A stretch of 41,788 bases of DNA from a virus: IMG/VR virus record IMGVR_UViG_3300013102_000018, positions 1 through 41,788 of that record; one strand, 5' to 3'. Below, in pieces: positions 1,866 through 33,379 of the stretch. The notes beneath the pieces are model-generated. The model worked only from the letters and a program-made list of their open reading frames with translations. It was not told the origin of the DNA and made no database searches. Each line of letters opens with the position of its first letter. Within the stretch, counting starts at the first letter, position 1. The position numbers and the translations under genes are program-made.

Positions 1866-1894
1866 TTGACCTATACGCACGTATAGATTACCTT
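1866..1894 (+). promoter_or_regulatory. Early promoter with palindromic operator, site 1
   Basis: TTGACC at 1866-1871, a 17-base spacer and TACCTT at 1889-1894 make a plausible sigma70 promoter with a weak -10. The spacer contains a perfect inverted repeat CTATACG-CA-CGTATAG at 1871-1886. The same 16-base design recurs at 3299, 7220 and 33361, each in front of a gene or operon, so it is read as a repressor operator that blocks RNA polymerase. Confidence 0.75.
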
Positions 1895-1927
1895 AGTTAA
1901 CAGGCGGCACCCCTGCCGCCCTTAACT
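1895..1927 (+). other. Leader hairpin in the 5' untranslated region
   Basis: AGTTAA-CA-GGCGGCA / CCCC / TGCCGCC-C-TTAACT forms a long two-part stem between promoter site 1 and the gene at 1939. No T run follows, so it is not a standard terminator. It might stabilise the message or act in attenuation; no function is demonstrated. Confidence 0.55.
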
Positions 1928-1938
1928 GAGGATCCACC

Positions 1939-2250
1939 ATGTTTAAATCACTTCTGAATTTATTCCGCAAAAAGGCCAAACCCGCAGGCTACAAAGTCGA
2001 TCTGGGTAACGGCGATTTCGTGCTGGCTACCACCGCAGAACAGGCGGCGGAATTCGCTTACATCATTCAGCGCAACAAAGAAACGGTTAATCGCCCGCTT
2101 ACCAATAACGTGCAGATCACCGTGGAAGCCGAGCGAGTCCAGCGCCTGACGGATGCGTTAAACAGCGTAGACACCCGCGTGGCCCGCCAGGAGCATATGC
2201 CTCATAAACGCATCGCCAGCGGCAACCATCCAGACCTGAAAAGCTATTAG
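1939..2250 (+). CDS. Unidentified early phage protein (103 aa)
   Basis: Starts MFKSLLNLFRKK, an amphipathic and strongly basic N-terminus, and continues as a soluble charged protein without Cys or clear motif. A ribosome binding site (TGAGGA) lies 7 bases before the ATG. It is the first gene after promoter/operator site 1 and heads a run of closely packed small genes. First genes of phage early operons often act against host functions, but nothing in this sequence identifies such a role. The family is not recognised. Confidence 0.75.
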   Translation: MFKSLLNLFRKKAKPAGYKVDLGNGDFVLATTAEQAAEFAYIIQRNKETVNRPLTNNVQITVEAERVQRLTDALNSVDTRVARQEHMPHKRIASGNHPDLKSY

Positions 2251-2258
2251 GGGGCACT

Positions 2259-2483
2259 GTGGCGCAGACTCTTAATTTTGCCAATTCACGGATTAAGAAA
2301 GACGGCGCACGGAAGCACCTCATTTTGTCGGACGGGCGCGAATACATGCGCGTAAGAGCATACGACTGGCGGGGATTCGTAAAGCCAGTCGCCGAAGGTG
2401 GGCACCCACCGCACTGGCGCAGGCCATCCGCTAACATCGTTTCGCAGCTGGAAGCGTATTTTAAACAGGCGGCAAAACAATGA
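2259..2483 (+). CDS. Unidentified small early protein, GTG start (74 aa)
   Basis: GTG at 2259 is preceded by a G-rich ribosome binding site (AGGGGGC) just after the previous stop. The 74-residue product is basic and aromatic, with a Tyr/Arg-rich centre (EYMRVRAYDWRG) and an amphipathic C-terminal helix. Its stop codon overlaps the ATG of the next small gene (ATGA). The packing and overlap support real coding. No function is recognised. Confidence 0.65.
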   Translation: MAQTLNFANSRIKKDGARKHLILSDGREYMRVRAYDWRGFVKPVAEGGHPPHWRRPSANIVSQLEAYFKQAAKQ

Positions 2484-2611
2484 TTTTCCGCACCCGTGTG
2501 CTGCGCCTGCTGGTGACTATCAGGCGCGAAAGGCGCTATTTAATACCGCACATTTTAATAATGGCGGTGCTCATTGAAATAATCGCAATTGTTATCGAGG
2601 TGAACAAATGA
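2480..2611 (+). CDS. Single-pass membrane peptide (43 aa)
   Basis: ATG at 2480 overlaps the stop of the previous gene (ATGA), and the TGA at 2609-2611 overlaps the next ATG at 2608 in the same way. The peptide begins with a basic segment (MIFRTRVLRLLVTIRRERR) and ends with a hydrophobic helix rich in Ile, Leu and Val (residues about 21-40), predicting an inner-membrane peptide with a positive cytoplasmic N-terminus. The exact fit into the ATGA chain is the main evidence for coding. Function unknown. Confidence 0.6.
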   Translation: MIFRTRVLRLLVTIRRERRYLIPHILIMAVLIEIIAIVIEVNK

Positions 2612-2832
2612 TCTATCGCAGAATGACGACCGTTCGCGGGCGTATTGAAATCGTGCTGGGCCAGAACCTTTCCGAACCCGGCAAAGAAACCGCCGCCACC
2701 CTGAGCAAGGAAAGCCCGTTTACCGAATTCATGGTGACAAAGGGCCGCCGTGTTAACCGTGACGCTATGGCTAAATACCTGCGCAAGCTGCGTCGGGAGC
2801 TGCGCGAATTCGTGAGGGATACAGATGCTTAA
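2608..2832 (+). CDS. Unidentified small basic early protein (74 aa)
   Basis: ATG at 2608 follows a GAGG ribosome binding site (ATCGAGGTGAACAAATG) and overlaps the previous stop. The product is strongly basic in its C-terminal half, with a predicted helix full of Arg and Lys (MAKYLRKLRRELREF) that could bind nucleic acid or an acidic partner. It has no Cys and no membrane segment. It sits among membrane peptides in one co-transcribed block. Function not recognised. Confidence 0.7.
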   Translation: MIYRRMTTVRGRIEIVLGQNLSEPGKETAATLSKESPFTEFMVTKGRRVNRDAMAKYLRKLRRELREFVRDTDA

Positions 2833-2908
2833 CAGCCTGATCCGTTATGCCGTTGGCGCGTATATCGCGCTGATGGTGGTAATCCTCTTTGGAGACTGGA
2901 CGATATGA
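2825..2908 (+). CDS. Very small membrane peptide (27 aa)
   Basis: ATG at 2825 overlaps the end of the preceding gene and its TGA at 2906-2908 overlaps the ATG of the secreted-protein gene at 2905 (ATGA). The peptide MLNSLIRYAVGAYIALMVVI... is almost entirely one hydrophobic helix. At 27 residues coding cannot be proven from composition alone, but the precise overlaps on both sides match the rest of this operon. Function unknown. Confidence 0.5.
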   Translation: MLNSLIRYAVGAYIALMVVILFGDWTI

Positions 2909-3291
2909 AAAAATTACTGATTGCCGCCCTGCTGCTGGCATCTTTTGGTCTGGCGGCCGCTGACGACGAGATCGAAGGCCCGATGGACGAAAACGGCGTT
3001 ATCCAGCTGTCTGGTGGCGACGACGTGGAGCCAGCGCCTAACCCGGCGCTGCAGGATATGGATCAGACCTTCTACTGCGTGGAGCTGCAGAAGCTGGCCG
3101 AATTCATGGCACACCGTCGCAAAGAGGGCGCGCCCGAATCCTACGTGGTGCAGATCCTTGCGGAGAATAAACGGCATGATTTGATCTGGATTGCGCGCCG
3201 GGTTTACTGGCCGCAGAACTGGGATAAAACGCCGGAGCAGGTGGGCTTTCAGATATGGCAGGCGTGCGAGGATAAAAAAAGAAATAGATAA
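2905..3291 (+). CDS. Secreted (periplasmic) early protein with signal peptide
   Basis: The N-terminus MKKLLIAALLLASFGLAAA is a textbook Sec signal peptide with probable cleavage after residue 19. The mature part is about 109 residues, acidic at first (DDEIEGPMDE) and then helical, with exactly two cysteines (about 58 and 121) that could form a disulfide in the periplasm. There is no lipobox. Phage proteins exported early in infection include superinfection-exclusion and envelope-modifying factors, but no known family is recognised, so this role is only a possibility. It ends the operon that starts at 1939, just before promoter site 2. Confidence 0.8.
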   Translation: MKKLLIAALLLASFGLAAADDEIEGPMDENGVIQLSGGDDVEPAPNPALQDMDQTFYCVELQKLAEFMAHRRKEGAPESYVVQILAENKRHDLIWIARRVYWPQNWDKTPEQVGFQIWQACEDKKRNR

Positions 3292-3294
3292 GTG

Positions 3295-3323
3295 TTGCCT
3301 ATACGGACGTATAGATATATATT
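3295..3323 (+). promoter_or_regulatory. Early promoter with palindromic operator, site 2
   Basis: TTGCCT at 3295-3300, spacer of 17, and TATATT at 3318-3323 form the best sigma70 match of the operator family. The perfect inverted repeat CTATACG-GA-CGTATAG at 3299-3314 overlaps the -35 and fills the spacer, ideally placed for repression. The transcript would start near 3330. Confidence 0.8.
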
Positions 3324-3376
3324 CTTTTCACGGGGCAGCGTGGGGCCGCCCGGACAAGCAAAAATGAGGTAACACC

Positions 3377-3490
3377 ATGTTTAATTCAATGTCTCGCCGT
3401 ACCGCAATCCAGTTTGTAATCCTGTCTTCTTTCGCTGTGTGGGCAGTCGGTACCGTAGCCGCAGTTAAACTCGCAGCCTGGCTGCTGTAA
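3377..3490 (+). CDS. Single-pass membrane peptide (37 aa)
   Basis: ATG at 3377 follows a ribosome binding site TGAGGT with 7-base spacing. The peptide has a short basic start (MFNSMSRRTAIQF) and then a hydrophobic helix of about 22 residues running nearly to the C-terminus (VILSSFAVWAVGTVAAV...). It is the first gene downstream of promoter/operator site 2. The ribosome site, promoter and typical N-in membrane topology make it credible despite its size. Function unknown. Confidence 0.6.
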   Translation: MFNSMSRRTAIQFVILSSFAVWAVGTVAAVKLAAWLL

Positions 3491-3501
3491 GGCGGTGATG
3501 T

Positions 3502-4026
3502 ATGGCTAAAAGTGATAACGACGCTGACCGGATCTATCTGAACCGCCATACGCCGGAATATCCCGGCAAGCGTGGCAAAGATGATCCTGAGTACAAAAAG
3601 CCAGTTAGCCGCGAACACGAACTACAAAACGAAATCCGTAACGATCTGGCAGGCGAATGCCTGCTGTTTCGTGCCAACGTGGGTAGCGGATGGCAGGGCG
3701 CTGGCAAGCCTGAGCGGTACAGCAAGCCCACTACGGTGGTTATCAATCGCGGCGACGTGGTGCTGCGCAAAGCGCGACCTTTCGACACGGGCCTGCCTGC
3801 TGGATTCTCTGACTTATTCGGCGTGACCAGTATCACGATAACCCCGGAAATGGTGGGCAAGCGGGTGGGCGTCTTCTTCGCGATGGAGGTTAAAGACAAG
3901 GCGCAGGCCAGCCGCGAGCAGGCCAACTTTCTGCAGGCGGTGAAGGATAACGGCGGAATCGCCGGTATCGCCAAAAGTACGGAGGACGCGCGCAAAATCG
4001 TGCGTAAGAAAAAGCATGGTGACTAA
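3502..4026 (+). CDS. VRR-NUC domain nuclease
   Basis: A 174-residue protein. The C-terminal half matches the VRR-NUC nuclease pattern of the PD-(D/E)XK superfamily: GFSDLFGV near residues 102-109 supplies the first acidic residue, FFAMEVKDK near 124-132 supplies the E-x-K pair, and REQANFLQAVKDNGG is the family's terminal helix. Phage VRR-NUC proteins are stand-alone endonucleases associated with replication or recombination and branched DNA; the substrate here is unknown. The gene follows the membrane peptide by 11 bases and overlaps the next start. The N-terminal 40 residues are polar and probably disordered. Confidence 0.85.
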   Translation: MAKSDNDADRIYLNRHTPEYPGKRGKDDPEYKKPVSREHELQNEIRNDLAGECLLFRANVGSGWQGAGKPERYSKPTTVVINRGDVVLRKARPFDTGLPAGFSDLFGVTSITITPEMVGKRVGVFFAMEVKDKAQASREQANFLQAVKDNGGIAGIAKSTEDARKIVRKKKHGD

Positions 4027-4315
4027 AAGAACCCTGATAGACGATCTCGCTAACTGCTGGTTTGACGAGCTGCCAGCAACCCAACAAACCCAGCAATCAT
4101 TCCGCAACTGCCAGGACATGGCGGCAAAATATTTCGAGGCAAACAGCTATGGCAATTTTAAACCGATCGGTAACTGCGGAGGACGCCAAAAACCGCTGGG
4201 CAACGCAGTGGGGCTGCTTTCTGGATGCGCAGCACCTTTACGGCAGGCGCTTTGCGGTGGACGTGTGCGCGGAGCCGGAGACAGCGAAAGTAAAACGCTT
4301 CTTCGCAAGTCCTGA
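4016..4315 (+). CDS. Possible small gene between nuclease and Dam methylase
   Basis: ATG at 4016 overlaps the VRR-NUC stop. The first 45 residues (MVTKRTLIDDLANCWFDELP...) read like a normal soluble protein, but after about 4149 the frame runs beneath the well-supported adenine methylase gene and its composition becomes Gly/Cys/Arg-rich, as expected of a shadow frame. Without it, 4027-4148 would be an unexplained gap in a tightly packed operon. It may be a real gene with an overlapping tail, or the remains of one. Function unknown. Confidence 0.4.
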   Translation: MVTKRTLIDDLANCWFDELPATQQTQQSFRNCQDMAAKYFEANSYGNFKPIGNCGGRQKPLGNAVGLLSGCAAPLRQALCGGRVRGAGDSESKTLLRKS

Positions 4316-4748
4316 TTGGTTTGAATCGCGCCGCCTGTCTGCTTTCGGTATCGGTGGCATGGACGGATTCGGCATCAAGAAAGGGCAGAAGGTGCTGGGC
4401 TTTGATGCTCTGCGCCAGAAATGGCCTGCTGACTGGTGGTGCAACCCGCCGTTTGATCGTAAGTGGGAGTTTGTTGCCCACGCCCGAGTCCAGCAGCAAT
4501 CGGGCAGGCCAGGCATGATGCTTTTGCCATACAGCCCGTGCAGCACCAGCTGGCGGCGTGCACTGGGTACCGGCGTAATCATCTATGAGCCGGACGGGCG
4601 CTACAACTTTATGGAGCCGGACGGCGAAACGAAGCAGAGCGGCGCTAATTTCGAATCGGCGCTGGTAGTCTTCACGACGAACCTGATCGGGGATTCGATC
4701 CGGGTACCGTTCCTGCGGGGGATCCACCAGCATGGCAAAGCAGATTGA
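4149..4748 (+). CDS. dam: Phage N6-adenine DNA methyltransferase (Dam-like)
   Basis: A 199-residue protein of the phage DNA N-6-adenine-methyltransferase family. The catalytic motif NPPF is at about residues 99-102 in the context WWCNPPFDRK, and the N-terminal half has the family's DVCAEPETAK region. It should transfer a methyl group from S-adenosylmethionine to adenine, probably in GATC by family analogy; the target is not visible in the sequence. The ATG at 4149 is preferred because GAGG lies about 9 bases upstream and the protein then starts like the family. Methylation could protect phage DNA from host restriction. A small gene overlaps its 3' end. Confidence 0.88.
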   Translation: MAILNRSVTAEDAKNRWATQWGCFLDAQHLYGRRFAVDVCAEPETAKVKRFFASPDWFESRRLSAFGIGGMDGFGIKKGQKVLGFDALRQKWPADWWCNPPFDRKWEFVAHARVQQQSGRPGMMLLPYSPCSTSWRRALGTGVIIYEPDGRYNFMEPDGETKQSGANFESALVVFTTNLIGDSIRVPFLRGIHQHGKAD

Positions 4749-4881
4749 ACCGACGCTACAAAACGCCCAGGCGCTGATGCTGCGCGCCATTGAAACCAAC
4801 GATTTTATTTTATTTCTCGCCGCTAAGGTTTGCTTATACAACCTAGCGCTAATGGAGGGTTTATTTGATGATTACCAATAA
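4732..4881 (+). CDS. Small protein overlapping the Dam gene (49 aa)
   Basis: ATG at 4732 has a strong G-rich ribosome binding site (GGGGGA) 9 bases upstream and overlaps the methylase 3' end by 17 bases; its stop overlaps the next gene's start by 14. The peptide MAKQIEPTLQNAQALMLRAI... is helical, and a hydrophobic stretch near residues 25-40 could be a membrane segment or a helical-bundle face. The good ribosome site and the overlaps on both sides support coding. Function unknown. Confidence 0.6.
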   Translation: MAKQIEPTLQNAQALMLRAIETNDFILFLAAKVCLYNLALMEGLFDDYQ

Positions 4882-5269
4882 ATTTACGAACGCTAAGAAC
4901 GTTAAAGAGATCGCCCGCTTAAACGCAGAAGTTCGCCGCCTTCAAACGATCCTGACTCTTTCGAATCGCCAGGGTGAAGAATTCTGGAAGGAAAGGTCTG
5001 AAACGCTGGCTGCTGAAAACGCCCATATGATGGCGGCTTTGCAGGAGCTGGGCGACGAGCGCGTGCATTCAATGCTTAACCTTATGATCATGTACAGTCA
5101 CAGCAAAGTGATGATCAACCAGTTGCAGGCTTATGGCTACCTGGCGGCGTCTAACGACATGAAAGAAGCCGCCCGCGAGATCGCAAACCCTGTCGTTTAC
5201 GATGCGTTTATGTCGCTGGCCGGCCAGATGGAAGATCGCGCCCGGGCACGCATTATTCGGTCTTCCTGA
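4868..5269 (+). CDS. Unidentified helical protein (133 aa)
   Basis: ATG at 4868 follows GGAGGG at optimal spacing. The protein starts MITNKFTNAK and is almost entirely helical, with heptad-like Leu/Ala spacing (residues about 12-60), suggesting a coiled coil, and a Met-rich central part. It has no Cys, no signal and no catalytic motif. It lies between the two DNA methylase genes and ends just before the Dcm start. Function not recognised. Confidence 0.75.
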   Translation: MITNKFTNAKNVKEIARLNAEVRRLQTILTLSNRQGEEFWKERSETLAAENAHMMAALQELGDERVHSMLNLMIMYSHSKVMINQLQAYGYLAASNDMKEAAREIANPVVYDAFMSLAGQMEDRARARIIRSS

Positions 5270-5270
5270 T

Positions 5271-7198: not shown

Positions 7199-7208
7199 CC
7201 AAAAAAAT

Positions 7209-7236
7209 CTGAAATAATTCTATACGTGCGTATAGG
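7209..7236 (+). promoter_or_regulatory. Early promoter with palindromic operator, site 3 (replication operon)
   Basis: CTGAAA at 7209-7214 and TATAGG at 7231-7236 are separated by 16 bases. The perfect inverted repeat CTATACG-TG-CGTATAG lies at 7220-7235, covering the spacer and -10. An inverted repeat GGTGAT/ATCACC follows near 7235-7256. The promoter would drive the HTH gene at 7286 and the primase-helicase, so the HTH product could regulate its own synthesis here. Confidence 0.72.
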
Positions 7237-7285
7237 TGATGGTCTACTATCACCTTGCGCACTTTTTCTTTGGAGCTAAGAAACC

Positions 7286-7477
7286 ATGACCAACCCGAAT
7301 CAGGAATTAATCGACTTTATGAAGGACAACGCCCTGACCCCGAAGGACGTTGCCGAAATGCTGGGCGTGAATGTAGACACCGTTTACATGTGGCGCGCCA
7401 GCAATGGCATTCGCGTTATACCTGCAGCCCGTTTCGAATTGCTGCAACTCAAAACGGCAGCAAAAAAGACTGCGTAA
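7286..7477 (+). CDS. Small XRE/Cro-like HTH regulator (candidate repressor)
   Basis: A 63-residue protein with a helix-turn-helix at about residues 16-37 (TPKDVAEMLGVNVDTVYMWR), followed by a short third-helix region typical of Cro-like XRE proteins. ATG at 7286 follows TGGAGC. It is the first gene downstream of operator site 3. A dimer of such a protein would suit a 16-base palindrome, so it is the best candidate in the genome for the factor that binds the CTATACG-N2-CGTATAG operators; this is inference from position and size. It could instead be a replication-initiation accessory, given the primase gene next to it. Confidence 0.75.
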   Translation: MTNPNQELIDFMKDNALTPKDVAEMLGVNVDTVYMWRASNGIRVIPAARFELLQLKTAAKKTA

Positions 7478-7503
7478 GCAGCGGGCAGTAAGGGGCTTTT
7501 GCG

Positions 7504-10287
7504 ATGGCTAAAAAATCATACAACCCGCTAACGGTTGACCAGATCCGACGCATGCTGACCTACATCGACGCCGATTGTTCGCGCGAAGAATGGGTGGACG
7601 TCGCTATGGGCGTTATGTCTGAGCTGGGCGACGCAGGCGAAGAAGTCTGGATGGAGTGGAGCCGCACCAGTACGGCAAAATTCAACCTTTCAGATGCACG
7701 CAGCACCTGGAAGTCTATCGGCGCTGGCGGAAAGACGATCGGCACCGTGTGGCACATGGCTGCCCAGAAAGGATGGGCGCTGGATAAGAGCGAGATCCAG
7801 CAGCTGCCAGAAGAGGAAATGGCCCAGCGTATTGCCAACCGCGAGGCAGCCGAAAAGGCAGCCAAAGAAGCGCGACAGGCTGATGCGGATAAGGCACGCG
7901 ACAGGGCAAATAATACGTGGAACGCGGCAGCACCGTGCGGCGATCACCCATACCTGCAGCGCAAAAAGGTTAAGTCCCACAACCTCAAAGTGGGCGACTT
8001 CGCGATGGAGAAACGCGACGGCACATACAGCACCCAGAAAAACATGCTGCTGATCCCGGTTATGTCGCTGGACGGCACGATCCACAACCTGCAAGCCATC
8101 TGGCCGAAAAAGCCAAAATGGGCAGAAGGTGGCAGCGATAAGCTGTTTATCAAAGGCGGCCTGGTGGGCGGTCACTTTTTCATAATCGGCAACCCCGGCG
8201 ACGGCGACGGCACCGTGGCTTTTTGTGAGGGTTACGCAACCGGCGCAGCAATCCGGGAGGCAACCGGCTGGTGCGTGGTGATCTGCTTCAACAGCAACAA
8301 CCTGATGCCGGTAGCGGAGCAATTCGCCAAAGAATTCGTGGGCGTGCCTTTCGTGGTCTGCGGCGATAACGATCGCTGGACGACGACGACGGTTAACGGC
8401 CAGAAGGTGAATAACCCGGGCGAACTGGCCGCTAAAAGCGTGGCTAACGTGATCCGTGGGCGTTGCATCGTTCCCCGCTTCACAAAGGAAACGCTACAGG
8501 CTAACACCGTGACAGACGACAAGGGCAGGACGCGCGGCCCTACCGACTTTAACGACCTTTTAGTGCTGGAAGGCGAAGAGCAGCTGGCGCGCCAGTTATC
8601 GGCGAAGGTGGTAGAAATGGCGAACATCAACCAAAAAAATAAATCCCCGGAGGAATCGACCAACCCGTGGGCAAACGATGAATTTACGGTGCTGGGGCAT
8701 AACCACGGCAATTATTTTTACCTTTGCCACGGTAGCCGCCAGGTGATCACCATGACGGCAGCGAAGCACACCAAAAACAATTTGATGGAGCTGGCAAGCC
8801 TCGAATGGTGGTACTCAATGTACCCGGTAAAGGGCGCGATCGACTGGGAGAAAGCCACCAACGACCTGATGCGCTTATGCCAGCAGCGCGGCATCTATTC
8901 GCTGGAAAAGATGCGCGGGCGTGGTGCGTGGTGGGACGACGATCGCGCGGTCTATCACTTTGGCAGCCATCTGCTGGTAGACGGCGAGGAAGTGGAAATT
9001 ACCGACTTTAACAGCCGGTACACATACCAGCAGGAACTGCCACTACCGACGCCAGCCGACGAGGCGCTAACCGACGACGAAGGGCAGGGGCTGCTGGATC
9101 TGGCAATGTCGTTTCGGTGGAGCGTGCCCGCGTCTGGCTGCTTACTGGCTGGATTCGTGGCGCTGGCACCTATCTGCGGTGCACTGCGCTGGCGGCCCCA
9201 CCTGTGGCTTACCGGTGGCGCTGGCTGCGGTAAATCGACGGTGCTTAACGAATACATTAACCCGCTGATGCACGGCATTAACATATTCGCGCAGGGCAAC
9301 AGTACAGAGGCAGGGATCCGCCAGCGACTGGGTGGTGATGCCCGTCCAGTGTTGTTCGATGAATCCGAGTCAAACAACGAACGCGAGGCGCAGCGCGTCC
9401 AGAACATCCTTTCGATGGTTCGCCAGGCATCCAGTGAGAGCCAGGCGGAGACGCTGAAAGGCAGCGCCAACGGCGACAGCATAACGTTTATGATCCGCAG
9501 CATGTTTTGCTTCGCATCCATTCAGGTGGGCATGAAGCAGCAGGCCGATATTGAGCGTTTAACGGTGCTGGCGATGCGCGGCAAAGAGGGTGAAGAAAAC
9601 GCGGCAGGCAACTGGGAGCAGCTGAGCGAGCGCCTTTACCAGCTGCGCCGGGATAAGGATCTACCGGCCCGCCTGTTTAAGCGCACGCTGGATTTGATGC
9701 CCACCACGCTGGCGAACATCAAAACCTTTTCCCGGGCTGCCGGTGATTATTTCGGTACCGCCCGCGAAGGCGACCAGTACGGCACGTTGCTGGCTGGCTG
9801 CTGGAGCCTGATCAGCACCGAGGCAGCGACCTACGAAGAGGCGCAGGAAATGATCGGGCGCTTCACGTGGGACGAAATCAAAGAGCGCAGCAGCGAGAGC
9901 GAAAGCAGCCAGGTGCTGGCCCGCATCATGGGTATCACCGACAAACTGGGCAACGGGCTTAACGTCCGGCTGCTGGAAGTGCTGCAGCAGGCCGCTGGCC
10001 GTGGGCAGGGTATCGGTCTGGATCAGAAAGAGGCGCAGCGCGTGTTACGCACTTACGGAATGGTCTACGAAGAAGGCCATCTGCTGATTGCCAACAACTG
10101 CCCGTACATCGAACGCCGCCTGCGTGATACGTCATTCGGCAGTGACTGGCGCGGGCAGCTGATGCGCGTTGCTGGCGTCGTGGCCTGGCCCAAACCGAAA
10201 AAGATTAACGGCACCCTGTCGCGCTGCGTCGGAATACCGTTTGATCTGGTGGCAGAAGACCCGAGCCAGCAGGAGCTGCTAAACTGA
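7504..10287 (+). CDS. Replicative primase-helicase (PriCT-2, Toprim-like and DUF927-type helicase domains)
   Basis: A 927-residue replication protein. Residues about 8-85 match the primase C-terminal-2 (PriCT_2) pattern, including REEWVDVAMG. Residues about 130-330 look like a Toprim-type primase domain (FCEGYATGAAIREATG then VVCGDNDRW). The C-terminal half is a helicase of the DUF927/superfamily 3 kind: Walker A GGAGCGKST near 571-579 and Walker B VLFDESES near 618-625. It would prime and unwind DNA at the phage origin, and a GGTTACA-rich origin candidate lies 300 bases downstream. Start at 7504 has AAGGGG at correct spacing. The gene is intact, and no separate loader or initiator gene is seen. 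Confidence 0.9.
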   Translation: MAKKSYNPLTVDQIRRMLTYIDADCSREEWVDVAMGVMSELGDAGEEVWMEWSRTSTAKFNLSDARSTWKSIGAGGKTIGTVWHMAAQKGWALDKSEIQQLPEEEMAQRIANREAAEKAAKEARQADADKARDRANNTWNAAAPCGDHPYLQRKKVKSHNLKVGDFAMEKRDGTYSTQKNMLLIPVMSLDGTIHNLQAIWPKKPKWAEGGSDKLFIKGGLVGGHFFIIGNPGDGDGTVAFCEGYATGAAIREATGWCVVICFNSNNLMPVAEQFAKEFVGVPFVVCGDNDRWTTTTVNGQKVNNPGELAAKSVANVIRGRCIVPRFTKETLQANTVTDDKGRTRGPTDFNDLLVLEGEEQLARQLSAKVVEMANINQKNKSPEESTNPWANDEFTVLGHNHGNYFYLCHGSRQVITMTAAKHTKNNLMELASLEWWYSMYPVKGAIDWEKATNDLMRLCQQRGIYSLEKMRGRGAWWDDDRAVYHFGSHLLVDGEEVEITDFNSRYTYQQELPLPTPADEALTDDEGQGLLDLAMSFRWSVPASGCLLAGFVALAPICGALRWRPHLWLTGGAGCGKSTVLNEYINPLMHGINIFAQGNSTEAGIRQRLGGDARPVLFDESESNNEREAQRVQNILSMVRQASSESQAETLKGSANGDSITFMIRSMFCFASIQVGMKQQADIERLTVLAMRGKEGEENAAGNWEQLSERLYQLRRDKDLPARLFKRTLDLMPTTLANIKTFSRAAGDYFGTAREGDQYGTLLAGCWSLISTEAATYEEAQEMIGRFTWDEIKERSSESESSQVLARIMGITDKLGNGLNVRLLEVLQQAAGRGQGIGLDQKEAQRVLRTYGMVYEEGHLLIANNCPYIERRLRDTSFGSDWRGQLMRVAGVVAWPKPKKINGTLSRCVGIPFDLVAEDPSQQELLN

Positions 10288-10321
10288 TTCTGCTGTGATA
10301 CGCGCAGGGATGCGCACCCAA

Positions 10322-10342
10322 TAAAAAACCCGCCGAGGCGGG
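10322..10342 (-). terminator. Intrinsic terminator for the minus-strand gene
   Basis: CCCGC / CGAG / GCGGG stem-loop at 10329-10342 with a run of A residues at 10323-10328 on the plus strand, which reads as T residues after the stem on the minus strand. It follows the stop of the minus-strand gene at once. On the plus strand no T run follows, so it would be weak for the primase-helicase transcript. Confidence 0.8.
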
Positions 10343-10549
10343 CTATTCATGCCGTGTAACTCTCAGTATGTGATCCTTAGTCATTACCGTATAAACCCTT
10401 CCCGTCTTCTTTTTCTGCTTCGACGCCTGAACCCTGACGCTTTGCCAATTGATCCCAGCAAGGGGCGTTTCAAAATAATCCCCCACTTTCATTTCTTCCC
10501 ACGGGTAGTAAGTATGCCCGTTGTAACCCCTGAAAATCTTGTGTTGCAT
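10343..10549 (-). CDS. Only minus-strand gene: small phage protein with MKVGDYFE motif
   Basis: A 68-residue basic protein read leftward from ATG at 10549 to TAG at 10343-10345, with a G-run ribosome binding site 6-7 bases before the start and its own terminator. The pattern of a central MKVGDYFETP, then a basic Lys/Arg stretch (QASKQKKKTGRVYTV) and a C-terminal ILRVTR resembles a family of small phage proteins of unknown function (I recall it as DUF7303-like; not checked). It lies convergent with the primase gene and next to the origin candidate. A DNA-binding role is possible from its charge but unproven. Confidence 0.75.
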   Translation of the reverse strand: MQHKIFRGYNGHTYYPWEEMKVGDYFETPLAGINWQSVRVQASKQKKKTGRVYTVMTKDHILRVTRHE

Positions 10550-10559
10550 AGCTGACCCC

Positions 10560-10980
10560 CCCTGTAATTGAGTTACTAATATAACCGATGTTACCCACCC
10601 GGCGCGTCTAAAAGGTTACAAATCGGAGTTACATTCAGTCTTGTAACCTAAATTGTAACCCCTAAGTGCATGTTTCATAAAGAAAGGTTACAGGTTACAG
10701 AGGTTACACGGAAATATAGAGAGTTGTAATGCGTGCGTGAGCGCGAGCGCGCGTGTGCGTGGGGTTATGTTTCCATATATATATATAATCTTGTAACCTT
10801 TATATATATATACATATAAAACAGGTAGTTAAGGGTTACAAAATGGGGTTACAACGAGGTTACAAGGCCCATAAGTTTGTAACCTTTTCGCTTAAAGCAA
10901 TGATTAATAACGATATTTCCTTGTAACCTTTTCGATTTCATATGCATTTGTATAGATAAACCCCCGCAATCGTATAGAAT
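10560..10980. other. Candidate replication origin: GGTTACA iterons with AT-rich and alternating purine-pyrimidine tracts
   Basis: No gene is seen from 10550 to 11011. The perfect heptamer GGTTACA occurs twelve times between 10614 and 10928: plus strand at 10614, 10686, 10693, 10702, 10834, 10847 and 10858; minus strand (TGTAACC) at 10642, 10654, 10792, 10878 and 10922. One-mismatch copies lie at 10627 and nearby. Between the clusters are AT alternations at 10775-10788 and 10801-10818 and a G/C-rich alternating tract near 10733-10761. Iterons flanking an easily melted AT tract, beside the primase-helicase gene, are the usual layout of a phage or plasmid origin. Binding by a repressor or partition protein is the alternative. 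Confidence 0.7.
10948..10980 (+). promoter_or_regulatory. Possible promoter of the HTH activator gene
   Basis: TTGTAT at 10948-10953 and TATAGA at 10973-10978 (or TAGAAT at 10975-10980) lie about 19-21 bases apart, wider than optimal. The sequence holds two copies of GTATAG (10950 and 10972), the half of the early operator. If functional it would place the activator gene under weak or repressor-linked control. Spacing is poor, so the call is tentative. Confidence 0.35.
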
Positions 10981-11011
10981 CAGATTAATCCCGCTACAAA
11001 GAGCCGCAGAA

Positions 11012-11482
11012 ATGAACCTACCCAAAAGCGTGCAGCAGATTGCCGACGTGATAGGAGTATCGCAAACCTTAAAGCTGATTGGCCTGTTGCCGGTCTGTAA
11101 GGTTCGCGATAAACGCTATTCCAAAGCGATCAGTAACCGGATAGTCCTGATTGTTCCCGCCAACCTCAAAGCCGACGATAAGCTGGTTAAGCTGATTGGA
11201 TGGGACGACGCCTACAAACTATCCCGCCACTTTGGCGGTGAGTTTCTTTATCCGGCAACATGTGCCGATATTTACCGCGATTTCCTGAAAGACACAGCCA
11301 TGCGCATGTATCGCGACGGCATGAAGCCCACAGACGTCTCAGAGGCTATGCAGATACCCTACAGAACGATAAGCCGGTGGCTGTCAGATGCCATCCCCCA
11401 CCATGCGCAGGCATACAGTGCTGGTAATATGTTCGACGCAACCGGCAGTAACGTGGGGAAAGGCAACAATGTGGCTATTTGA
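11012..11482 (+). CDS. Helix-turn-helix protein, candidate late-gene activator (Mor/C-like pattern)
   Basis: A 156-residue protein with a clear C-terminal helix-turn-helix at about residues 103-125 (GMKPTDVSEAMQIPYRTISRW) preceded by a beta/loop segment GGEFLYPATCADIYRDF. This order, GG-x2-LY then an (I/L)YRDF helix and an HTH, recalls the Mor/C family of Mu middle and late activators, though overall similarity is unproven. It is the last gene before the lysis and structural genes, where a late activator would be expected. Its own 3' end holds a degenerate copy of the late-promoter element. Whether it binds that element is inference. Confidence 0.65.
   Translation: MNLPKSVQQIADVIGVSQTLKLIGLLPVCKVRDKRYSKAISNRIVLIVPANLKADDKLVKLIGWDDAYKLSRHFGGEFLYPATCADIYRDFLKDTAMRMYRDGMKPTDVSEAMQIPYRTISRWLSDAIPHHAQAYSAGNMFDATGSNVGKGNNVAI
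11388..11431 (+). promoter_or_regulatory. Late-promoter element, degenerate copy 1 (lysis cassette)
   Basis: From 11388 the sequence ATGCCATCCCCCACCATG matches the element family at 16 of 18 positions, but the last three bases of the -35-like hexamer differ (ATGCGC). TAATAT at 11425-11430 lies 16 bases downstream and AATATG 17 bases downstream. The site lies in the 3' end of the HTH gene, about 65 bases before the first lysis gene. The upstream part is conserved while the -35 is poor, as expected if an activator does the recruiting. Confidence 0.55.
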
Positions 11483-26373: not shown

Positions 26374-26374
26374 A

Positions 26375-26782: not shown

Positions 26783-26800
26783 CTTTGCTGTCGCATTTTG

Positions 26801-26869: not shown

Positions 26870-26910
26870 TGGCGTGCCTTTTGAGTGCTCAACTACTAAG
26901 GATCGAATCA

Positions 26911-28335
26911 ATGGCTACTGAATTTCTACACGGGCCGGAGGTGCTGGAAATTGACAACGGGATCCGAACTATCCGCATCGCGTCTTCAAGCGTGATCGGT
27001 ATTGTCGGAACTGCGCCCGATGCCAACGCCCAGGCTTTCCCGCTCAATACCCCTGTACTGATTGCAGGCAGCAGAACAGAAGCTGCTTTGCTGGACACCG
27101 TGGGCAATGAAGCGGGCACGCTTCCTAAAGCCCTGGACGCAATTCTTGATCAAACCAATGCCGTGGTAATCGTGGTGCGCGTTGGAGATGGCGACACCGA
27201 TAATGAGACGCTGGCTAACATCCTGGGCGGTGTTAATGCCAACAATGGCAATTATGAAGGGCTGCAGGCGCTGCTGGCGTCTAAATCAACCCTGGGCTAT
27301 GCGCCACGTATTCTTTGCGTACCCGGCTTCACGCATACCCGGCAGCAGAATGCTGTTACTGCAGTAACCGTGACTGCGGCAGGCGCTGGCTATACCAGCG
27401 CACCAGACGTCACTATTACTGGTGGCAATGGTACCGGCGCAACGGCGCACGCCGTTCTCGATACGCAGGGCCGCGTAAGTAAAATCATTATTGATTCTGC
27501 CGGTACCGGTTATACAGCTGCGCCAACAGTAAATATTTCTGGCGGTGGCGGATCTGGTGCGACGGCGGCGGCCAGTTATGGCAGTACCGCCAATGCTGTT
27601 GTAGCGTCCCTGATCACGATTGCAGAAAGCCTTCGCGCGATCATCTGGGCAGACGGTCCGAACACCACCGATGCGGACGCTATTGCCTATCGTAAAGATT
27701 TTGGCAGTAAGCGCGTGATGGTTATCGATCCGAAAGTTATCACCGTTGATTCCGATGGTAATAACCAGACTGAGTGGAGCAGCGCCCGAGCCGCTGGCGT
27801 CATGGCTGCCACCGATGCGTCTATCGGCTTTTGGGCTTCCCCGTCCAATAAACTGGTTAACGGTATCATTGGCACGGCACGACCGATCGATTTCGTTCTG
27901 GGCGATACCAGCAGCCGAGCTAACCTGCTGAACGCCAGCGAAGTAACGACAATCATCAATGAAGACGGGTACCGCCTTTGGGGAAACCGTACCTGCAGCG
28001 ACGATTCAAAGTGGACATTTATCACGGCGGTGCGCACGAATGACATTATCGCGGATTCAGTTATGCAGAATCACCTGTGGGCAATCGATCGCAATGTAGA
28101 TAAAAACTATATTGACGACGTTGTGGGCGGTGTTAATGCTTTCCTGCGTGAGCTGAAAAGCACTGGCGCGATCGCTGGTGGTGAGTGCTGGTTTGATAAA
28201 GACCTCAACACCAAAGAAAGCCTGGCTGCTGGTCATATCTATTTTGACTATGCATTTAGCCCGTCGCCAGTTGCCGAGCGCATTACCTTCCGCGCCCATA
28301 TGACTAACGACTATATTTCGGAGATCTTCAGCTAA
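26911..28335 (+). CDS. FI: Contractile tail sheath protein, P2 FI-like, with inserted beta-repeat domain
   Basis: A 474-residue sheath protein (P2 FI is about 396). The core is typical: FLHGPEVLEIDNGIRTIR at the start and FWGNRTCSDD, WAIDRNVDKNYIDDVVGGVNAFLRELK and IYFDYAFSPSPVAERITF in the C-terminal domain. Between residues about 147 and 227, after ILCVPGF, two tandem repeats are inserted (VTAAGAGYTSAPDVTITGG and DSAGTGYTAAPTVNISGG, each followed by a GTGATA/GSGATA-type turn). This repeat type is known from other phage and surface proteins and should stand out on the sheath exterior. ATG at 26911 follows AAGGA at 8 bases. Confidence 0.93.
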   Translation: MATEFLHGPEVLEIDNGIRTIRIASSSVIGIVGTAPDANAQAFPLNTPVLIAGSRTEAALLDTVGNEAGTLPKALDAILDQTNAVVIVVRVGDGDTDNETLANILGGVNANNGNYEGLQALLASKSTLGYAPRILCVPGFTHTRQQNAVTAVTVTAAGAGYTSAPDVTITGGNGTGATAHAVLDTQGRVSKIIIDSAGTGYTAAPTVNISGGGGSGATAAASYGSTANAVVASLITIAESLRAIIWADGPNTTDADAIAYRKDFGSKRVMVIDPKVITVDSDGNNQTEWSSARAAGVMAATDASIGFWASPSNKLVNGIIGTARPIDFVLGDTSSRANLLNASEVTTIINEDGYRLWGNRTCSDDSKWTFITAVRTNDIIADSVMQNHLWAIDRNVDKNYIDDVVGGVNAFLRELKSTGAIAGGECWFDKDLNTKESLAAGHIYFDYAFSPSPVAERITFRAHMTNDYISEIFS

Positions 28336-28841: not shown

Positions 28842-28856
28842 GCAGTAAACCCTTAA

Positions 28857-28880
28857 CCGGCCTTTCGGGGCCGGATATTT
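28857..28880 (+). terminator. GC hairpin after the tube gene, weak or partial terminator
   Basis: CCGGCC / TTTCGG / GGCCGG forms a 6-bp stem followed by ATATTTCAT, with no proper T run. It may attenuate transcription between the abundant sheath/tube genes and the less needed tape-measure genes. Confidence 0.5.
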
Positions 28881-28904
28881 CATCTAATGCGAGAGTTAAA
28901 AATC

Positions 28905-29198
28905 ATGACTGACAAAAACCCAGCAGCAAAATTCGTTAAAGAAACCTCCGAAGGCGTAACCATTACCCTGCAGAAAGGCTACCTGCCAGCGGGCGTCGAT
29001 ACTCGCGTGACTGAAATTGAAATGCGTGAACCGATGGTAAAAGACCAGATGATCGCGCGTAAGCAGGCCAGCGACGACGCGGAAATGGAAACCGTTCTGC
29101 TTTGCGCACTCACTGGCCTGCAGCCTTCTGAGCTGGAATCTCTGAGCGCACGCGATTACGCGCGCGTGCAGGCTGGCTACAATTTTTTTATGGACTAA
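28905..29198 (+). CDS. E: Tail assembly chaperone, P2 gpE-like (zero-frame product)
   Basis: A 97-residue protein starting MTDKNPAAKF. GAGAG lies 9 bases before the ATG at 28905, which is preferred over an in-frame ATG at 28887. The sequence EIEMREPMVKDQMIARKQA and a C-terminal helical part match P2 gpE in position and pattern. It coats the tape measure during tail assembly. The last codons before the stop contain a T-run slippery site that allows a longer product. Confidence 0.85.
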   Translation: MTDKNPAAKFVKETSEGVTITLQKGYLPAGVDTRVTEIEMREPMVKDQMIARKQASDDAEMETVLLCALTGLQPSELESLSARDYARVQAGYNFFMD

Positions 29199-29329
29199 CC
29201 CCGGAGTGGATAAGGGCCAGTATGCTGGCCCTTGCCAGTCATACCGGCTGGCAGCTGTCTGAACTTAAAAGCCTGCCGGTATCGGAATTCGTTTTTTATA
29301 TTGAAGGCTTAAAGACAGATGGCAAATAA
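28905..29329 (+). CDS. E': Tail assembly chaperone E+E' by -1 frameshift
   Basis: At 29183-29189 seven T residues are read in the zero frame as aaT TTT TTT, an ideal X-XXY-YYZ slippery heptamer. A -1 shift continues into a frame open to TAA at 29327-29329, adding about 46 residues (from YGLTPEWIRAS through HTGWQLSELKSLPVSEF). That added segment has the GpE'-type pattern and lies upstream of the tape measure, whose start it overlaps by 11 bases. P2 makes its E+E' protein in the same way, so the frameshift is strongly expected. Confidence 0.82.
29183..29189 (+). other. Programmed -1 ribosomal frameshift site
   Basis: T-TTT-TTT heptamer, in phase with the E reading frame and six bases before its TAA (29196). 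P2-like phages use a comparable T-rich heptamer between E and E'. No strong downstream pseudoknot was found by eye. Confidence 0.82.
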
Positions 29330-31598
29330 ACGTCTAAATGCCCTGATAACCATCGGCGGCGCAGTGTCCGGGAGCCTTAAAGGTGCATTCGGAAGCCTGA
29401 AAGGCAGCATAAGCAATATCGGCGGCACCGTCGCCGATCTCAACCGCAAACAGCGCCTGCTTAACGATTCAATAAAACGATTCGGTGAGCAGGGGCTTAA
29501 CGTCGATAAACTCAAATCTAAATACGCATCGCAGGCCCGCCAGATCGATCAGCTGACGGCTGCGCATCGTCGCCTTAATGCCGTCCAGGCCAGAACCGAA
29601 AAAAACGAAGCCAGAAAGCAGGGCATGCGCGCCGGTATCGGGGAAACCGTGGCGGGCGCTATCGCTGTCGGGTACCCGATTAAAGCGGCGATGGAATTCG
29701 AAGATAAGATCGCCGAGGTTCGCAAGGTGGTGGACGCCCCCAGCGGCATGGATAAAAACACTTACTTTGGACAGCTGGGGCAGCAGATTCTGGATCTGTC
29801 TCAAAAAATCCCGATGACAGCCAGCCAGATTGGTGATCTTGTCGCAGCTGGTGGGCAGTCGGGCATTGCGTCCAATGAGCTGATCAAGTTTGCAGAAGCC
29901 GCGGGCAAAATGGGCGTGGCGTTTGATATTACCGCGGAGACGGCAGGCCAGAGCATGGCCGAAATGAAATCCGCTTTCCGCATGACGCTGCCGGAAGTTA
30001 TCGAGCTAGGCGATAAGATTAATGCCCTGTCGAACGTCGGAGCGGCGAGCGCCAGTGACGTGATGGACATTGTTAAGCGCATCGGGCCGCTGGGCGAGGT
30101 GGCAAACGTATCATCGGGCCAGATTGCTGCCCTGGGATCCACGTTGCGTGGCATGGGGGTGCAGAACGAAATCGCAGCGACCGGGATTAAAAACCTGATG
30201 CTTACGCTTACGTCCGGCGCGAAAGCAACGAAGGGCCAGAAAGAGGCGCTTAAACAGCTGGGTTACGGTTCCAAGCAGGTGGCAGGATCGATGCAGAAGG
30301 ATAGCGAGAAGACGATCCTTACCATCCTTAAAAGCATTAACCGGCTGGATAAAGTACACCGCCCGGAAGTGCTTAACGCGCTATTCGGCAAAGATACGGT
30401 GGGCAGTATCGCGCCGCTGCTTAACAACCTGGATGAAGTGCAAAGGCAGTTTGCACTGGTGGCCGATAAGAGCCAGTACGCCGGATCGATGCAGAAGGAA
30501 TTCGAAAGCCGCGCCGCAACCACCAGTAACAGCCTTATCCTGCTGCGCAACCGCATGAACCGGATAGCGATAACGATCGGCAGCGCCGTGCTGCCGCAGC
30601 TGAATGCGCTGATCAATGCGTCATTCCCGTACATCGATCAAATCAGCACGCTGGTGCAGCAGCACCCGCAGCTTACGCAGGCGATTATCGCAACAGGCGC
30701 GGCTATTGTCGGGCTGCGTGTCGTCGCGCTGGCATCTGGCTTTGTCTGGACGACGCTTAACGGCTACTGGCTGGCCGGGGTTAAAGTGCTAACCATGCTC
30801 GACAGCGGACTGGTGAAGGCGGGCATTAACTGGCGGCTGTTTAATATGGCGATGATTGCCAGCCCGGTGGGCCTGATTATCGCAGGCGTTGCGCTGGCCG
30901 TGGGCGCGCTGTCGCTGGCTATCTATCGAAACTGGGACATTATCAAATCATTTATCAGCGGAGCCATTACGCCACTGTGGGAAGGCATAAAGCCAGTGCG
31001 GGATGCGTTTAGCGGGCTGTGGGATCTGGTGGTTCGGTTCGGTAAAGATATTGGCATTACCGGCGAGAGCGTGAAGAAGTTTACGACCTGGTTTAGTGAG
31101 CTATTCACCCCGATAAATCATAGTAAAGACGCCCTGGACGGGGCGAAAAAATCAGGCAGCGAATTCGGTACGGTGATGGCGAACGCGATCAATTTTGTTT
31201 ATCAACCGCTGATCAAACTGGTGGAGGCGTTTAAGTGGCTGGACACCAACGTGGGCGGCATCATGGAGAAGGCGCAGACTTTCGGGCATAAGGAAATCAG
31301 AGGCGCAGCTGGTGCTGTTGGCGGATTTTTCCAGAACCTATTCGGTACCGGAGACGACCGGCCAGTAGTTGCCACCGGAGGAAATAACCCGTTCGGAATG
31401 GCACCGCCAGCAGTACCTGCAATGTATAGCGGAGCAGGAAGCCAGCAGACAACCGATAACAGCACGACGCATATCACTGTCGTACAACGTCCGGGCGAGA
31501 ACGGACCGGACTTTGCGCGCCGGGTGGTGGAAGAGCAACGCAGGGCAAAAGCGCAGAATAATAACAGCGCCATGCCTGACAATCTGGCGATACCATAA
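29319..31598 (+). CDS. T: Tape measure protein, P2 gpT-like
   Basis: A 759-residue protein (P2 gpT is 815). The N-terminal ~110 residues are coiled coil (SLKGSISNIGGTVADLNRKQ). The tape-measure core includes MEFEDKIAEVRKVV near 125-138 and LGSTLRGMGVQNEIAATGIKNLML near 271-294. Two hydrophobic segments near 453-490 and 505-540 could insert in the host membrane during DNA entry. Its length sets tail length and it is ejected ahead of the DNA. The start overlaps the E' frame. Confidence 0.94.
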   Translation: MANKRLNALITIGGAVSGSLKGAFGSLKGSISNIGGTVADLNRKQRLLNDSIKRFGEQGLNVDKLKSKYASQARQIDQLTAAHRRLNAVQARTEKNEARKQGMRAGIGETVAGAIAVGYPIKAAMEFEDKIAEVRKVVDAPSGMDKNTYFGQLGQQILDLSQKIPMTASQIGDLVAAGGQSGIASNELIKFAEAAGKMGVAFDITAETAGQSMAEMKSAFRMTLPEVIELGDKINALSNVGAASASDVMDIVKRIGPLGEVANVSSGQIAALGSTLRGMGVQNEIAATGIKNLMLTLTSGAKATKGQKEALKQLGYGSKQVAGSMQKDSEKTILTILKSINRLDKVHRPEVLNALFGKDTVGSIAPLLNNLDEVQRQFALVADKSQYAGSMQKEFESRAATTSNSLILLRNRMNRIAITIGSAVLPQLNALINASFPYIDQISTLVQQHPQLTQAIIATGAAIVGLRVVALASGFVWTTLNGYWLAGVKVLTMLDSGLVKAGINWRLFNMAMIASPVGLIIAGVALAVGALSLAIYRNWDIIKSFISGAITPLWEGIKPVRDAFSGLWDLVVRFGKDIGITGESVKKFTTWFSELFTPINHSKDALDGAKKSGSEFGTVMANAINFVYQPLIKLVEAFKWLDTNVGGIMEKAQTFGHKEIRGAAGAVGGFFQNLFGTGDDRPVVATGGNNPFGMAPPAVPAMYSGAGSQQTTDNSTTHITVVQRPGENGPDFARRVVEEQRRAKAQNNNSAMPDNLAIP

Positions 31599-32014
31599 TG
31601 CAAAATTCAGTAACAACACTGTCAGCAATGAGCAGCGTTATGATGAAGCTGGGGGATTATAAATTTATGATCCCCGAGGCCGTTTATCAGACGCTGGAGC
31701 GCAGCACGGAATGGAAATGGCCCAGCCAGCACCGTTTTTTATTGGGTCCATCTTCCCAGTTTGTGGGTAACGGAGAAGACCGGATCACGCTTAGCGGCGT
31801 GATTTTCCCTGAATGGCTGGGCGGTGCCAAGCAGGTTAACCGATTCCGGGAAATGGGCGGAACCGGCGAATCGTACCTGCTTATCAGTGGTACCGGCAGC
31901 ATTATGGGCAACTGGTTCATCGAAGGGGTAAACGAGAAACAGAGCCTTTTTGCTGCTTTCGGTACCCCGCGCAAACAGGAATTCACGCTAACCCTGCGGA
32001 GGCAATACCCATGA
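31598..32014 (+). CDS. U: Tail protein, P2 gpU-like
   Basis: A 138-residue protein (P2 gpU is 159) with the gpU pattern: MMKLGDYKFMIPEAVYQTLERSTEWKW near the start and a later RITLSGVIFPEWLGGAKQVNRFREM. It functions at the tail end or baseplate hub in P2-type phages. It overlaps the tape measure stop (ATAATG) and the X gene. Confidence 0.9.
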   Translation: MQNSVTTLSAMSSVMMKLGDYKFMIPEAVYQTLERSTEWKWPSQHRFLLGPSSQFVGNGEDRITLSGVIFPEWLGGAKQVNRFREMGGTGESYLLISGTGSIMGNWFIEGVNEKQSLFAAFGTPRKQEFTLTLRRQYP

Positions 32015-32226
32015 CGCTGCAACAGTACAGAACGAAAGAGGGTGAAACCGTCGCCTATATTGCATGGAAGCAGTACGGGAACCAGAACCCAGGAACCGTT
32101 GAAGCGGTTTTTAACGCCAATCCCAACCTGGCCTCGCAGGATGCTTTGCTTCCAGCTGGGATTCTTATCTGGCTGCCCGTAATTGAACAATCTAAACCGC
32201 AGGAGATCGTGACGCTATGGCAATAG
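32011..32226 (+). CDS. X: Tail protein with LysM-like fold, P2 gpX-like
   Basis: A 71-residue protein (P2 gpX is 67): YRTKEGETVAYIAWKQYGN then VEAVFNANPNLASQDALLPAGILIWLP, the tail protein X pattern related to LysM. It probably connects hub parts and may contact peptidoglycan. It overlaps U by four bases and D by ten. Confidence 0.93.
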   Translation: MTLQQYRTKEGETVAYIAWKQYGNQNPGTVEAVFNANPNLASQDALLPAGILIWLPVIEQSKPQEIVTLWQ

Positions 32227-33350
32227 ATCCAACCGTAATGGGCGCGCTAAAGCTGGGCGTTAAAGCCAACAACGAAGACATAAAAGACGCCATTCTGGAT
32301 CGTCTTTTTTCTATGCAGCTGTCGGATGGAGCAGGGTTTGAGTCAGACACACTCGAAATGGTGCTGGTTGACGATGATCCGATGAAGCCGGTAAAGGTTC
32401 CACCAAAAGGCGCGGAGCTGGAAGTCACCCTGGGCTATGAGCGGTTTTATCGCAGCATGGGTTTGTTTGTTGTTGACGACATGGAGCTGGCCGGGTGGCC
32501 TATGGCGCTGGTTATCCGGGCCAGGGCTGCCCCATTCGAAAAAAGCAAACTGGGGAAAACCCAGTTGCAGACGCAGAAAAACCGCAGCTGGGAAAAAGGT
32601 TCCACGCTGGCGGCGGTGCTCGATACGCTGGCGAAAGAGCACAACATGAAATCAGCTATCAGCGCCTCGATGGCTGGGATCGTCTTGCCGCACCTCGACC
32701 AGAAAGAAGAAAGCGACATTAACTTTTTGCTGCGCATCGCCCGAAAGTACGACGGGATCGTTAAACCGGCCGGTGGCTACCTGACGATCACAAAGAAGGG
32801 CGAGGCTCTGAGCGCCAGCGGGGCGAAGCTGCCTACTGTCAACCTGAACAGAACCGAAATAACAGACTTCCGCTGGAGCACGCAGAGCCGTGATAAAGCT
32901 GGTACCGTGATCGCTTATTACAAGATTTCGAAGAAGGCGGCGCGCGTCGAATTGAAGGTGGGCGAAGGCGAGCCGGTAAAACGCATCGGCACCAACTACC
33001 CCACCAAAGAAATGGCGCTGGCGGCCGCCAAAGCATTGTTGGCAAAAACACAGCGACAGGAAGTCACAATGGGTTTAACGGTAATCGGAAACCCTGAATT
33101 CATGGCGGAAATGATCGTCAAAATAGAGGATGTTCACGAAGTTTTGAACGGAGAATGGCTGGTTAAAACCTGCCGCCACCGCCTGGGAGAGCAGGGCTAT
33201 CTGGTGGATCTTGAGCTGGAGCAGCCCAACGACGAATCAGAGCCTGACGTGAGCGAGCGAGAATTAAAAGCGCCAAAGGTGGGCGCGAAGGAGGATCCGA
33301 ACGACGATTACAACGCAGGCGTGATTACGCTACCCCCGTTAAAAAAATAG
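32217..33350 (+). CDS. D: Baseplate hub protein, P2 gpD-like
   Basis: A 377-residue protein (P2 gpD is 387). Family features include DRLFSMQLSDGAGFESDTLEMVLVDDD near 28-54, KNRSWEKGSTLAAVLDTLAKEHNM, LDQKEESDINFLLRIARKYDGIVKPAGG near 160-187, and GEWLVKTCRHRL near the C-terminus. It forms the hub that holds the spike. It closes the tail operon; no terminator is visible before promoter/operator site 4, which follows at once. Confidence 0.93.
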   Translation: MAIDPTVMGALKLGVKANNEDIKDAILDRLFSMQLSDGAGFESDTLEMVLVDDDPMKPVKVPPKGAELEVTLGYERFYRSMGLFVVDDMELAGWPMALVIRARAAPFEKSKLGKTQLQTQKNRSWEKGSTLAAVLDTLAKEHNMKSAISASMAGIVLPHLDQKEESDINFLLRIARKYDGIVKPAGGYLTITKKGEALSASGAKLPTVNLNRTEITDFRWSTQSRDKAGTVIAYYKISKKAARVELKVGEGEPVKRIGTNYPTKEMALAAAKALLAKTQRQEVTMGLTVIGNPEFMAEMIVKIEDVHEVLNGEWLVKTCRHRLGEQGYLVDLELEQPNDESEPDVSERELKAPKVGAKEDPNDDYNAGVITLPPLKK

Positions 33351-33379
33351 TTGACCGCAGTTATACGCCCGTATAGACT
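33351..33379 (+). promoter_or_regulatory. Early promoter with palindromic operator, site 4
   Basis: TTGACC at 33351-33356, a 17-base spacer and TAGACT at 33374-33379. The inverted repeat TTATACG-CC-CGTATAG at 33361-33376 matches the operator family except for the outermost base. It directly follows the last tail gene and starts a new block of small genes. Confidence 0.75.

Follow-up and report, generated by a model that had tools for sequence, protein, structure and literature searches.

The window, i.e., the whole stretch of 41,788 nucleotides that was analyzed, is a complete circular virus assembly with a 123-bp terminal repeat. It contains three perfect CTATACG-N2-CGTATAG dyads (s1, s2, and s3; 0 mismatches) and a fourth one (s4) with a single mismatch, an outer C to T change. 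All four had been recognized in a sequence-only reading of the window and were confirmed in a scan of its full length, in which exactly four matches to CTATACGNNCGTATAG with ≤3 mismatches were found. Dinucleotide-shuffled versions of the window contained 0.89 such matches on average and never as many as four (0/100 shuffles), and full dyads were present in 0/60 shuffles. Among the 7+7 palindromes of the window (spacer 0-4), the CTATACG dyads are the sole repeated family. The dyads and the features around them are as follows.

1871..1886, no strand: putative operator s1, CTATACG-CA-CGTATAG, located between the DEAD/ResIII helicase gene and the 1939 operon
3299..3314, no strand: putative operator s2, CTATACG-GA-CGTATAG, followed by the 3377 gene and the VRR-NUC-like 3502 gene
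7220..7235, no strand: putative operator s3, CTATACG-TG-CGTATAG, covering the -35 of the promoter for the HTH and primase genes
33361..33376, no strand: putative operator s4, TTATACG-CC-CGTATAG, before the gene block from 33425 to the integrase gene
1866..1894, + strand: promoter candidate P1, TTGACC-N17-TACCTT; s1 fills the spacer; 98th percentile of random window stretches
3295..3323, + strand: promoter candidate P2, TTGCCT-N17-TATATT; s2 occupies the spacer together with the last two bases of the -35; above 99.5%
7221..7250, + strand: promoter candidate P3, TATACG-N18-TACTAT; assigned by orthology with relatives
33351..33379, + strand: promoter candidate P4, TTGACC-N17-TAGACT; s4 spans the spacer and the first three bases of the -10; 99.4%
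7234..7255, no strand: inverted repeat AGGTGATGGTCTACTATCACCT around the P3 -10, with the -10 in the loop
1924..1950, + strand: leader with start codon, 81% resemblance to 3362-3388
3362..3388, + strand: second leader copy, resembling 1924-1950
1939..2250, + strand: first gene past s1, 103 aa, no assigned function; product 64% identical to its homologue in the near relative G001 (see below)
3502..4026, + strand: gene for a VRR-NUC-like nuclease downstream of s2; weak Pfam match; 55% to the MQ-4 gene at 34662
7286..7477, + strand: gene for a 63-aa single-HTH protein, the proposed repressor of s1-s4; PF12728 above cut-off
7504..10287, + strand: PriCT-2/Toprim primase-helicase gene downstream of the HTH gene
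33425..38072, + strand: gene block past s4, ending in a tyrosine integrase gene (36831-38072)

The helicase gene ends at 1844, and s1 starts at 1871. Site s4 is located directly past the last tail gene, and the gene block that follows it is probably co-transcribed, to judge from gene order only. As claimed previously, no dyad precedes late genes, which was borne out for all four sites. The leaders of s1 and s2, with their start codons, look duplicated and flank a cassette of small genes without assigned function. Half-sites had also been pointed out at 10950 (TGTATAG), 10972 (CGTATAG), and 38267 (TATACG). They are indeed present, but at chance-level frequency: TATACG was counted 13 times, including eight copies inside the dyads, against a mean of 10.8 in shuffled sequence, and CTATAC 12 times against 8.2. 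Since neither is in excess over shuffles, isolated half-sites provide no evidence, and these three were rejected as operators.

The dyads had further been proposed to overlap the spacers of sigma70-like promoters. When a simple sigma70 score was compared with that of random window stretches, this appeared a good description of the sites at 3299 and 33361, a fair one at 1871, and a poor one at 7220, where no spacer-type promoter scores well. Alignment with orthologues indicates that the 7220 dyad instead covers the -35 of P3, whose -10, TACTAT (7245-7250), lies 9 bp downstream of s3. P3 itself scores poorly in the sigma70 test. The same layout in other sequence, i.e., a -10 in the loop of an inverted repeat and a dyad over the -35, is found at the orthologous promoters of ep3, Persinger, MQ-4, and Arya.

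The product of the 7286 gene matches phrog_14341, annotated as "transcriptional repressor" (E = 1.2e-5), and is 35-46% identical to its named orthologues. It shares the characteristics of the phrog_14341 group, which consists of single-HTH proteins of 60-65 aa: its gene is directly upstream of the primase gene, a dyad precedes the -10 of its promoter (CTATACGTGCGTATAG, 9 bp, TACTAT), and another dyad, s1, is found past the helicase gene. No dyad follows the primase gene (10288-11011 scanned); such a post-primase site is a regularity that was noticed in the present analysis, is variable among relatives, and is not a published criterion. An AF2 model of the protein is a four-helix domain with a mean pLDDT of 86. 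Its neighbors in Foldseek are Aca10, Aca1, C proteins, DdrO, and 434 Cro, all with weak E-values (best 0.043; for 434 Cro, TM 0.70 on the query with E = 0.2). The predicted fold may be that of a Cro/C-protein-like domain.

Orthologues of the 7286 product were found in Serratia phage MQ-4, Enterobacter phage Arya, Escherichia phages ep3, ECOO78, Alux-21, and Bas97, Salmonella phage PT1, and Pseudomonas phages Persinger and PPpW-3, and, via Persinger, in Klebsiella phage KA2-1, ECO1230-10, the Xanthomonas FoX phages, Burkholderia phage Mica, and Achromobacter phage Mano. The gene precedes the primase gene, sometimes with one or two genes in between, in all named relatives examined except two siphovirus-type groups of distant homologues; it is located just ahead of it in Jilinvirus, MQ-4, Persinger, PPpW-3, Foxunavirus, Mica, and Mano. 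A mechanical search in 25 genomes for a dyad-symmetric 16-mer 7-10 bp upstream of a -10-like hexamer revealed such a dyad 8-9 bp upstream of the -10 of the HTH promoter in most of them, with no clear dyad at the expected place in L077 and L099.

Past the helicase and primase genes, the dyad is usually present again. MQ-4, ep3, Bas97, and Arya each contain their own dyad in all three gaps, i.e., those of the helicase, HTH, and primase genes, with 0.00-0.17 matches on average in shuffles, and MQ-4 has one further match elsewhere in the genome. Persinger has its dyad in these gaps as well, as judged by coordinates (the post-helicase match, at 27343, is 20 bp past the helicase gene), and so have Mica and Mano. 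PPpW-3 has two pattern matches, one of which overlaps the annotated start of the gene past the primase gene, and in the FoX phages the post-primase match is inside a gene and, therefore, less convincing. The place of s1 is orthologous to dyad places in MQ-4, Jilinvirus, Arya, Persinger, FoX, Mica, and Mano. Thus, scanning of relatives, as had been suggested, located the putative switch at the same places with its lettering changed by lineage. No close prophage from the lineage of the window was detected in a primase-based genome scan, and the open-access literature that was searched contained no description of operators in these phages. A genome search with the HTH profile yielded nine chromosomal genes (L182-L190) for a different-looking subfamily without matching dyads; they encode small HTH proteins of the MNNRDxLIDLM type, which are distant kin of the phage repressor.

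The 63-aa HTH protein encoded at 7286-7477 is, from these comparisons, very probably the regulator of the putative operators. The sequence-only reading had nominated it, and the comparative evidence supports the choice, as orthologues in at least seven named phage groups adjoin their own dyads. Likewise, a single phage repressor that acts on several dispersed early promoters appears to be the best reading, supported by the pairing of orthologues and dyads. A caveat comes from G006 (IMGVR_UViG_3300010367_000378, L060-L064), an unrelated high-GC phage of 87.9 kb with three perfect and two near copies of the 16-mer, most of them ~4 bp past a TTGAC-type -35. No homologue of the HTH protein was found in G006, and, thus, the site sequence alone does not name the binding protein.

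The dyads are well-preserved in the near relative IMGVR_UViG_3300031132_000003 (G001; 44,346 bp with a 127-bp terminal repeat), which is 91-95% identical to the window over most aligned blocks. It retains all four sites. In aligned segments of 196 bp, the s3 region is identical, and at s1, s2, and s4 there are hardly any changes from the upstream side to within the leader. The promoter side of the 1939 gene is in this respect unlike its product. The sole changes within dyads are in the 2-bp spacer, i.e., CA to CC in s1 and GA to AA in s2; those further out affect the s1 leader hairpin and coding sequence. The unchanged arms suggest constraint, for which this comparison on its own offers weak support because there are few changes overall.

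With 63 aa and an HTH domain only, the 7286 product lacks the C-terminal peptidase-like domain of cI-type MQ4_40 and was, therefore, rejected as a cI-type prophage repressor. With MQ-4 cI as the query, the window yielded no cI homologue, and a cI gene is not annotated in ep3. In Bas97, Arya, and MQ-4, a gene for a cI-like repressor is next to the helicase gene, and the gap between the two contains, as read by eye, GGTTACCG-like repeats, not the dyads. The latter lie outside this gap, an arrangement different from the shared operators of lambda-type Cro. Since the dyads are kept in the window and in ep3-type phages without cI, they seem to belong to a CI-independent, autoregulated early repressor.

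It is likely, then, that s1-s4 are operators of the 7286-7477 HTH protein, which would turn down early operons in a Cro-like, autoregulatory fashion. We infer binding, dimerization, the direction of repression, its timing, and the extent of the operons as follows. The protein, presumably as a dimer, would occupy each 16-bp dyad with one subunit per half. RNA polymerase would be blocked because the dyad covers either the -35 (s3) or the spacer between -35 and -10 (s1, s2, and s4). With s3 on its own promoter, the protein would be autoregulatory, and its build-up would turn down the early operons, i.e., the post-helicase genes, the nuclease gene, the HTH and primase genes, and the block ending in the integrase gene. 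Among the observations against this proposal, the window does not have the post-primase operator of the relatives and has two extra ones (s2 and s4), and the -35 of P3 (TATACG) is poor. The latter, together with the different position of s3 relative to its promoter as compared with s1, s2, and s4, could also mean that binding of the 7286 product to the dyads has, at some promoters, an effect other than simple repression, namely activation or switching. This is unlikely, as every dyad overlaps core promoter elements and the site in relatives contains a usable -35 (TTTAC[AT]).

Another phage regulator might bind the dyads, such as an undetected cI-like repressor or the product of the gene at 40702-41052, which is clearly an HTH protein, with two tandem HTH_17 domains, and has a shorter, single-domain relative in MQ-4. 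Most genes for 7286 orthologues are accompanied by a dyad, and the 40702 gene is not; with no cI homologue found in the window and different repeats in the cI gap of relatives, such a regulator seems improbable. Phages can also use host regulators, and the dyads could be bound by a transcription factor of the host, to the benefit of the phage. Equal abundance of the palindrome in the host genome, away from phage genes, had been named beforehand as evidence against a phage repressor. The exact 16-mer was present in 0/369 bacterial genomes sampled from the class of G021, a Paraburkholderia genome, which answers the point only in the broad form of a class-wide sample; about 30 viral contigs contain one copy each. 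Moreover, the site sequence shifts by phage lineage together with the phage HTH protein, which makes a host factor very improbable. Although the core of T7-class promoters resembles CTATAG, a role of the CTATACG/CGTATAG units as promoter elements of a single-subunit phage RNA polymerase is scarcely conceivable, since a domain search of gene products revealed no such enzyme, the units have two-fold symmetry, and other dyads replace them in relatives of the same gene order.

In the window, the half-site of the putative operators is CTATACG (nTATACG). MQ-4, Persinger, PPpW-3, and the ep3 group have nTTTAC, Arya has nTTTAA, the FoX and Mica-like phages have nTTCAC, and Mano has both nTATAC and nTTTAC. 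In Mano, base 3 is A in 5/10 half-sites (five sites, including those at 922 and 5334), which supersedes a three-site count of 4/6. In a primase tree with long branches, the window is sister to MQ-4, not Mano. Operator divergence correlates with overall divergence of the HTH protein (r = 0.63). After removal of this overall divergence, the partial correlation specific to the recognition helix was r = 0.21 (p = 0.04) with all 20 rows and not significant with one row per lineage (r = 0.09, p = 0.33), and such a link could not be told apart from overall HTH divergence. A recognition-helix code for the operator sequence is suggestive and not statistically supported. As the helix explains the operator no better than the rest of the protein when each lineage is counted once, joint change is supported only in general terms, with each lineage having its own pair. 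Residue 35 is I where the half-site is TTTAC, V mostly where it is TTCAC (TTTAA in Arya), and M where it is TATAC, i.e., in the window and about half of the half-sites of Mano. Tentatively, Jilinvirus, Harrisonburgvirus, Hiroshimavirus, Foxunavirus, Micavirus, Manovirus, and the lineage of the window may perhaps share a second, CI-independent early regulon, in which the specificity of a tiny repressor and its two to five operators changed jointly on several occasions at constant operator length and promoter geometry. Residue 35, which precedes the invariant Trp36, may then be one of those that set half-site bases 3-4.

The proposed dyad switch appears to be real, yet phage gene control of this type is broadly familiar, and the system is a further member of a known repressor group. 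Like the Jilinvirus-type small repressors (phrog_14341; Arya gp45, ep3_0014, and MQ4_50), the window encodes an orthologous HTH protein of 60-65 aa before the primase, with a 16-bp dyad at a fixed distance from the -10 and another past the helicase gene. It differs in its half-site (CTATACG instead of nTTTAC, nTTTAA, or nTTCAC), the lack of a post-primase copy, the extra s2 and s4, a cI that was not found, and an inverted exoVIII-SSB block. Lambda and 434 Cro are similarly small HTH proteins, and autoregulation is probable for the 7286 product, the AF2 model of which may resemble 434 Cro; in contrast to Cro, it appears not to share operators with a divergent cI, and its targets are dispersed over the genome. 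The prophage repressor C1 of phage P1 likewise has operators scattered over the genome, but its sites are asymmetric, whereas those of the window are symmetric. Aca1 and Aca10 are the nearest solved folds to the model, Aca1 having been solved on a 14-bp palindrome; the match is not significant by E-value, and no anti-CRISPR operon was identified in the window. Cluster A mycobacteriophages also have dispersed sites for one phage repressor, with specificity differing between phages; these stoperators are large in number, lack symmetry, and affect elongation under an immunity repressor (PMC9283540, PMC6550527). The phages discussed here have two to five symmetric promoter sites. Stoperators are mostly outside promoters, whereas all four symmetric sites of the window are on promoter-like sequences.

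The analysis provides a concrete candidate regulator, with its targets, for phages of a group often devoid of cI and integrase. Their lifestyle has been called enigmatic, and integrase and cI have been noted to look intact in only some members (PMC11990801). A separate early-gene repressor is apparently kept even in members without cI. Related repressors with differing operators in a constant geometry form a compact natural series for studying repressor-operator change, and the operators could mark early promoters in metagenomic relatives.

Several other features of the window were observed. The region from exoVIII to the SSB-like gene (38300-41652) is on the + strand in the window, in contrast to its orientation in MQ-4 and Jilinvirus, and the edge of this block lacks cI. 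The gene at 11012-11482 encodes a homologue of phage late transcriptional activators (phrog_836, E = 1e-19), related to Mu Mor according to the annotation of the Mano orthologue. Between the primase and late activator genes, the AT-rich stretch 10563-10935 contains many GGTTAC/GTAACC copies and could be a replication origin with iterons. A comparable GTTAC-rich stretch is found at the matching place in MQ-4 (41329-41718). Finally, a 21-bp motif, AATGCCATCCCGCACAATGAC, occurs in four near-identical + strand copies in the late region (16290, 19082, 23331, and 26825), two of which are inside genes and read NAIPHND. None was found in MQ-4, and four copies are also present in G001.
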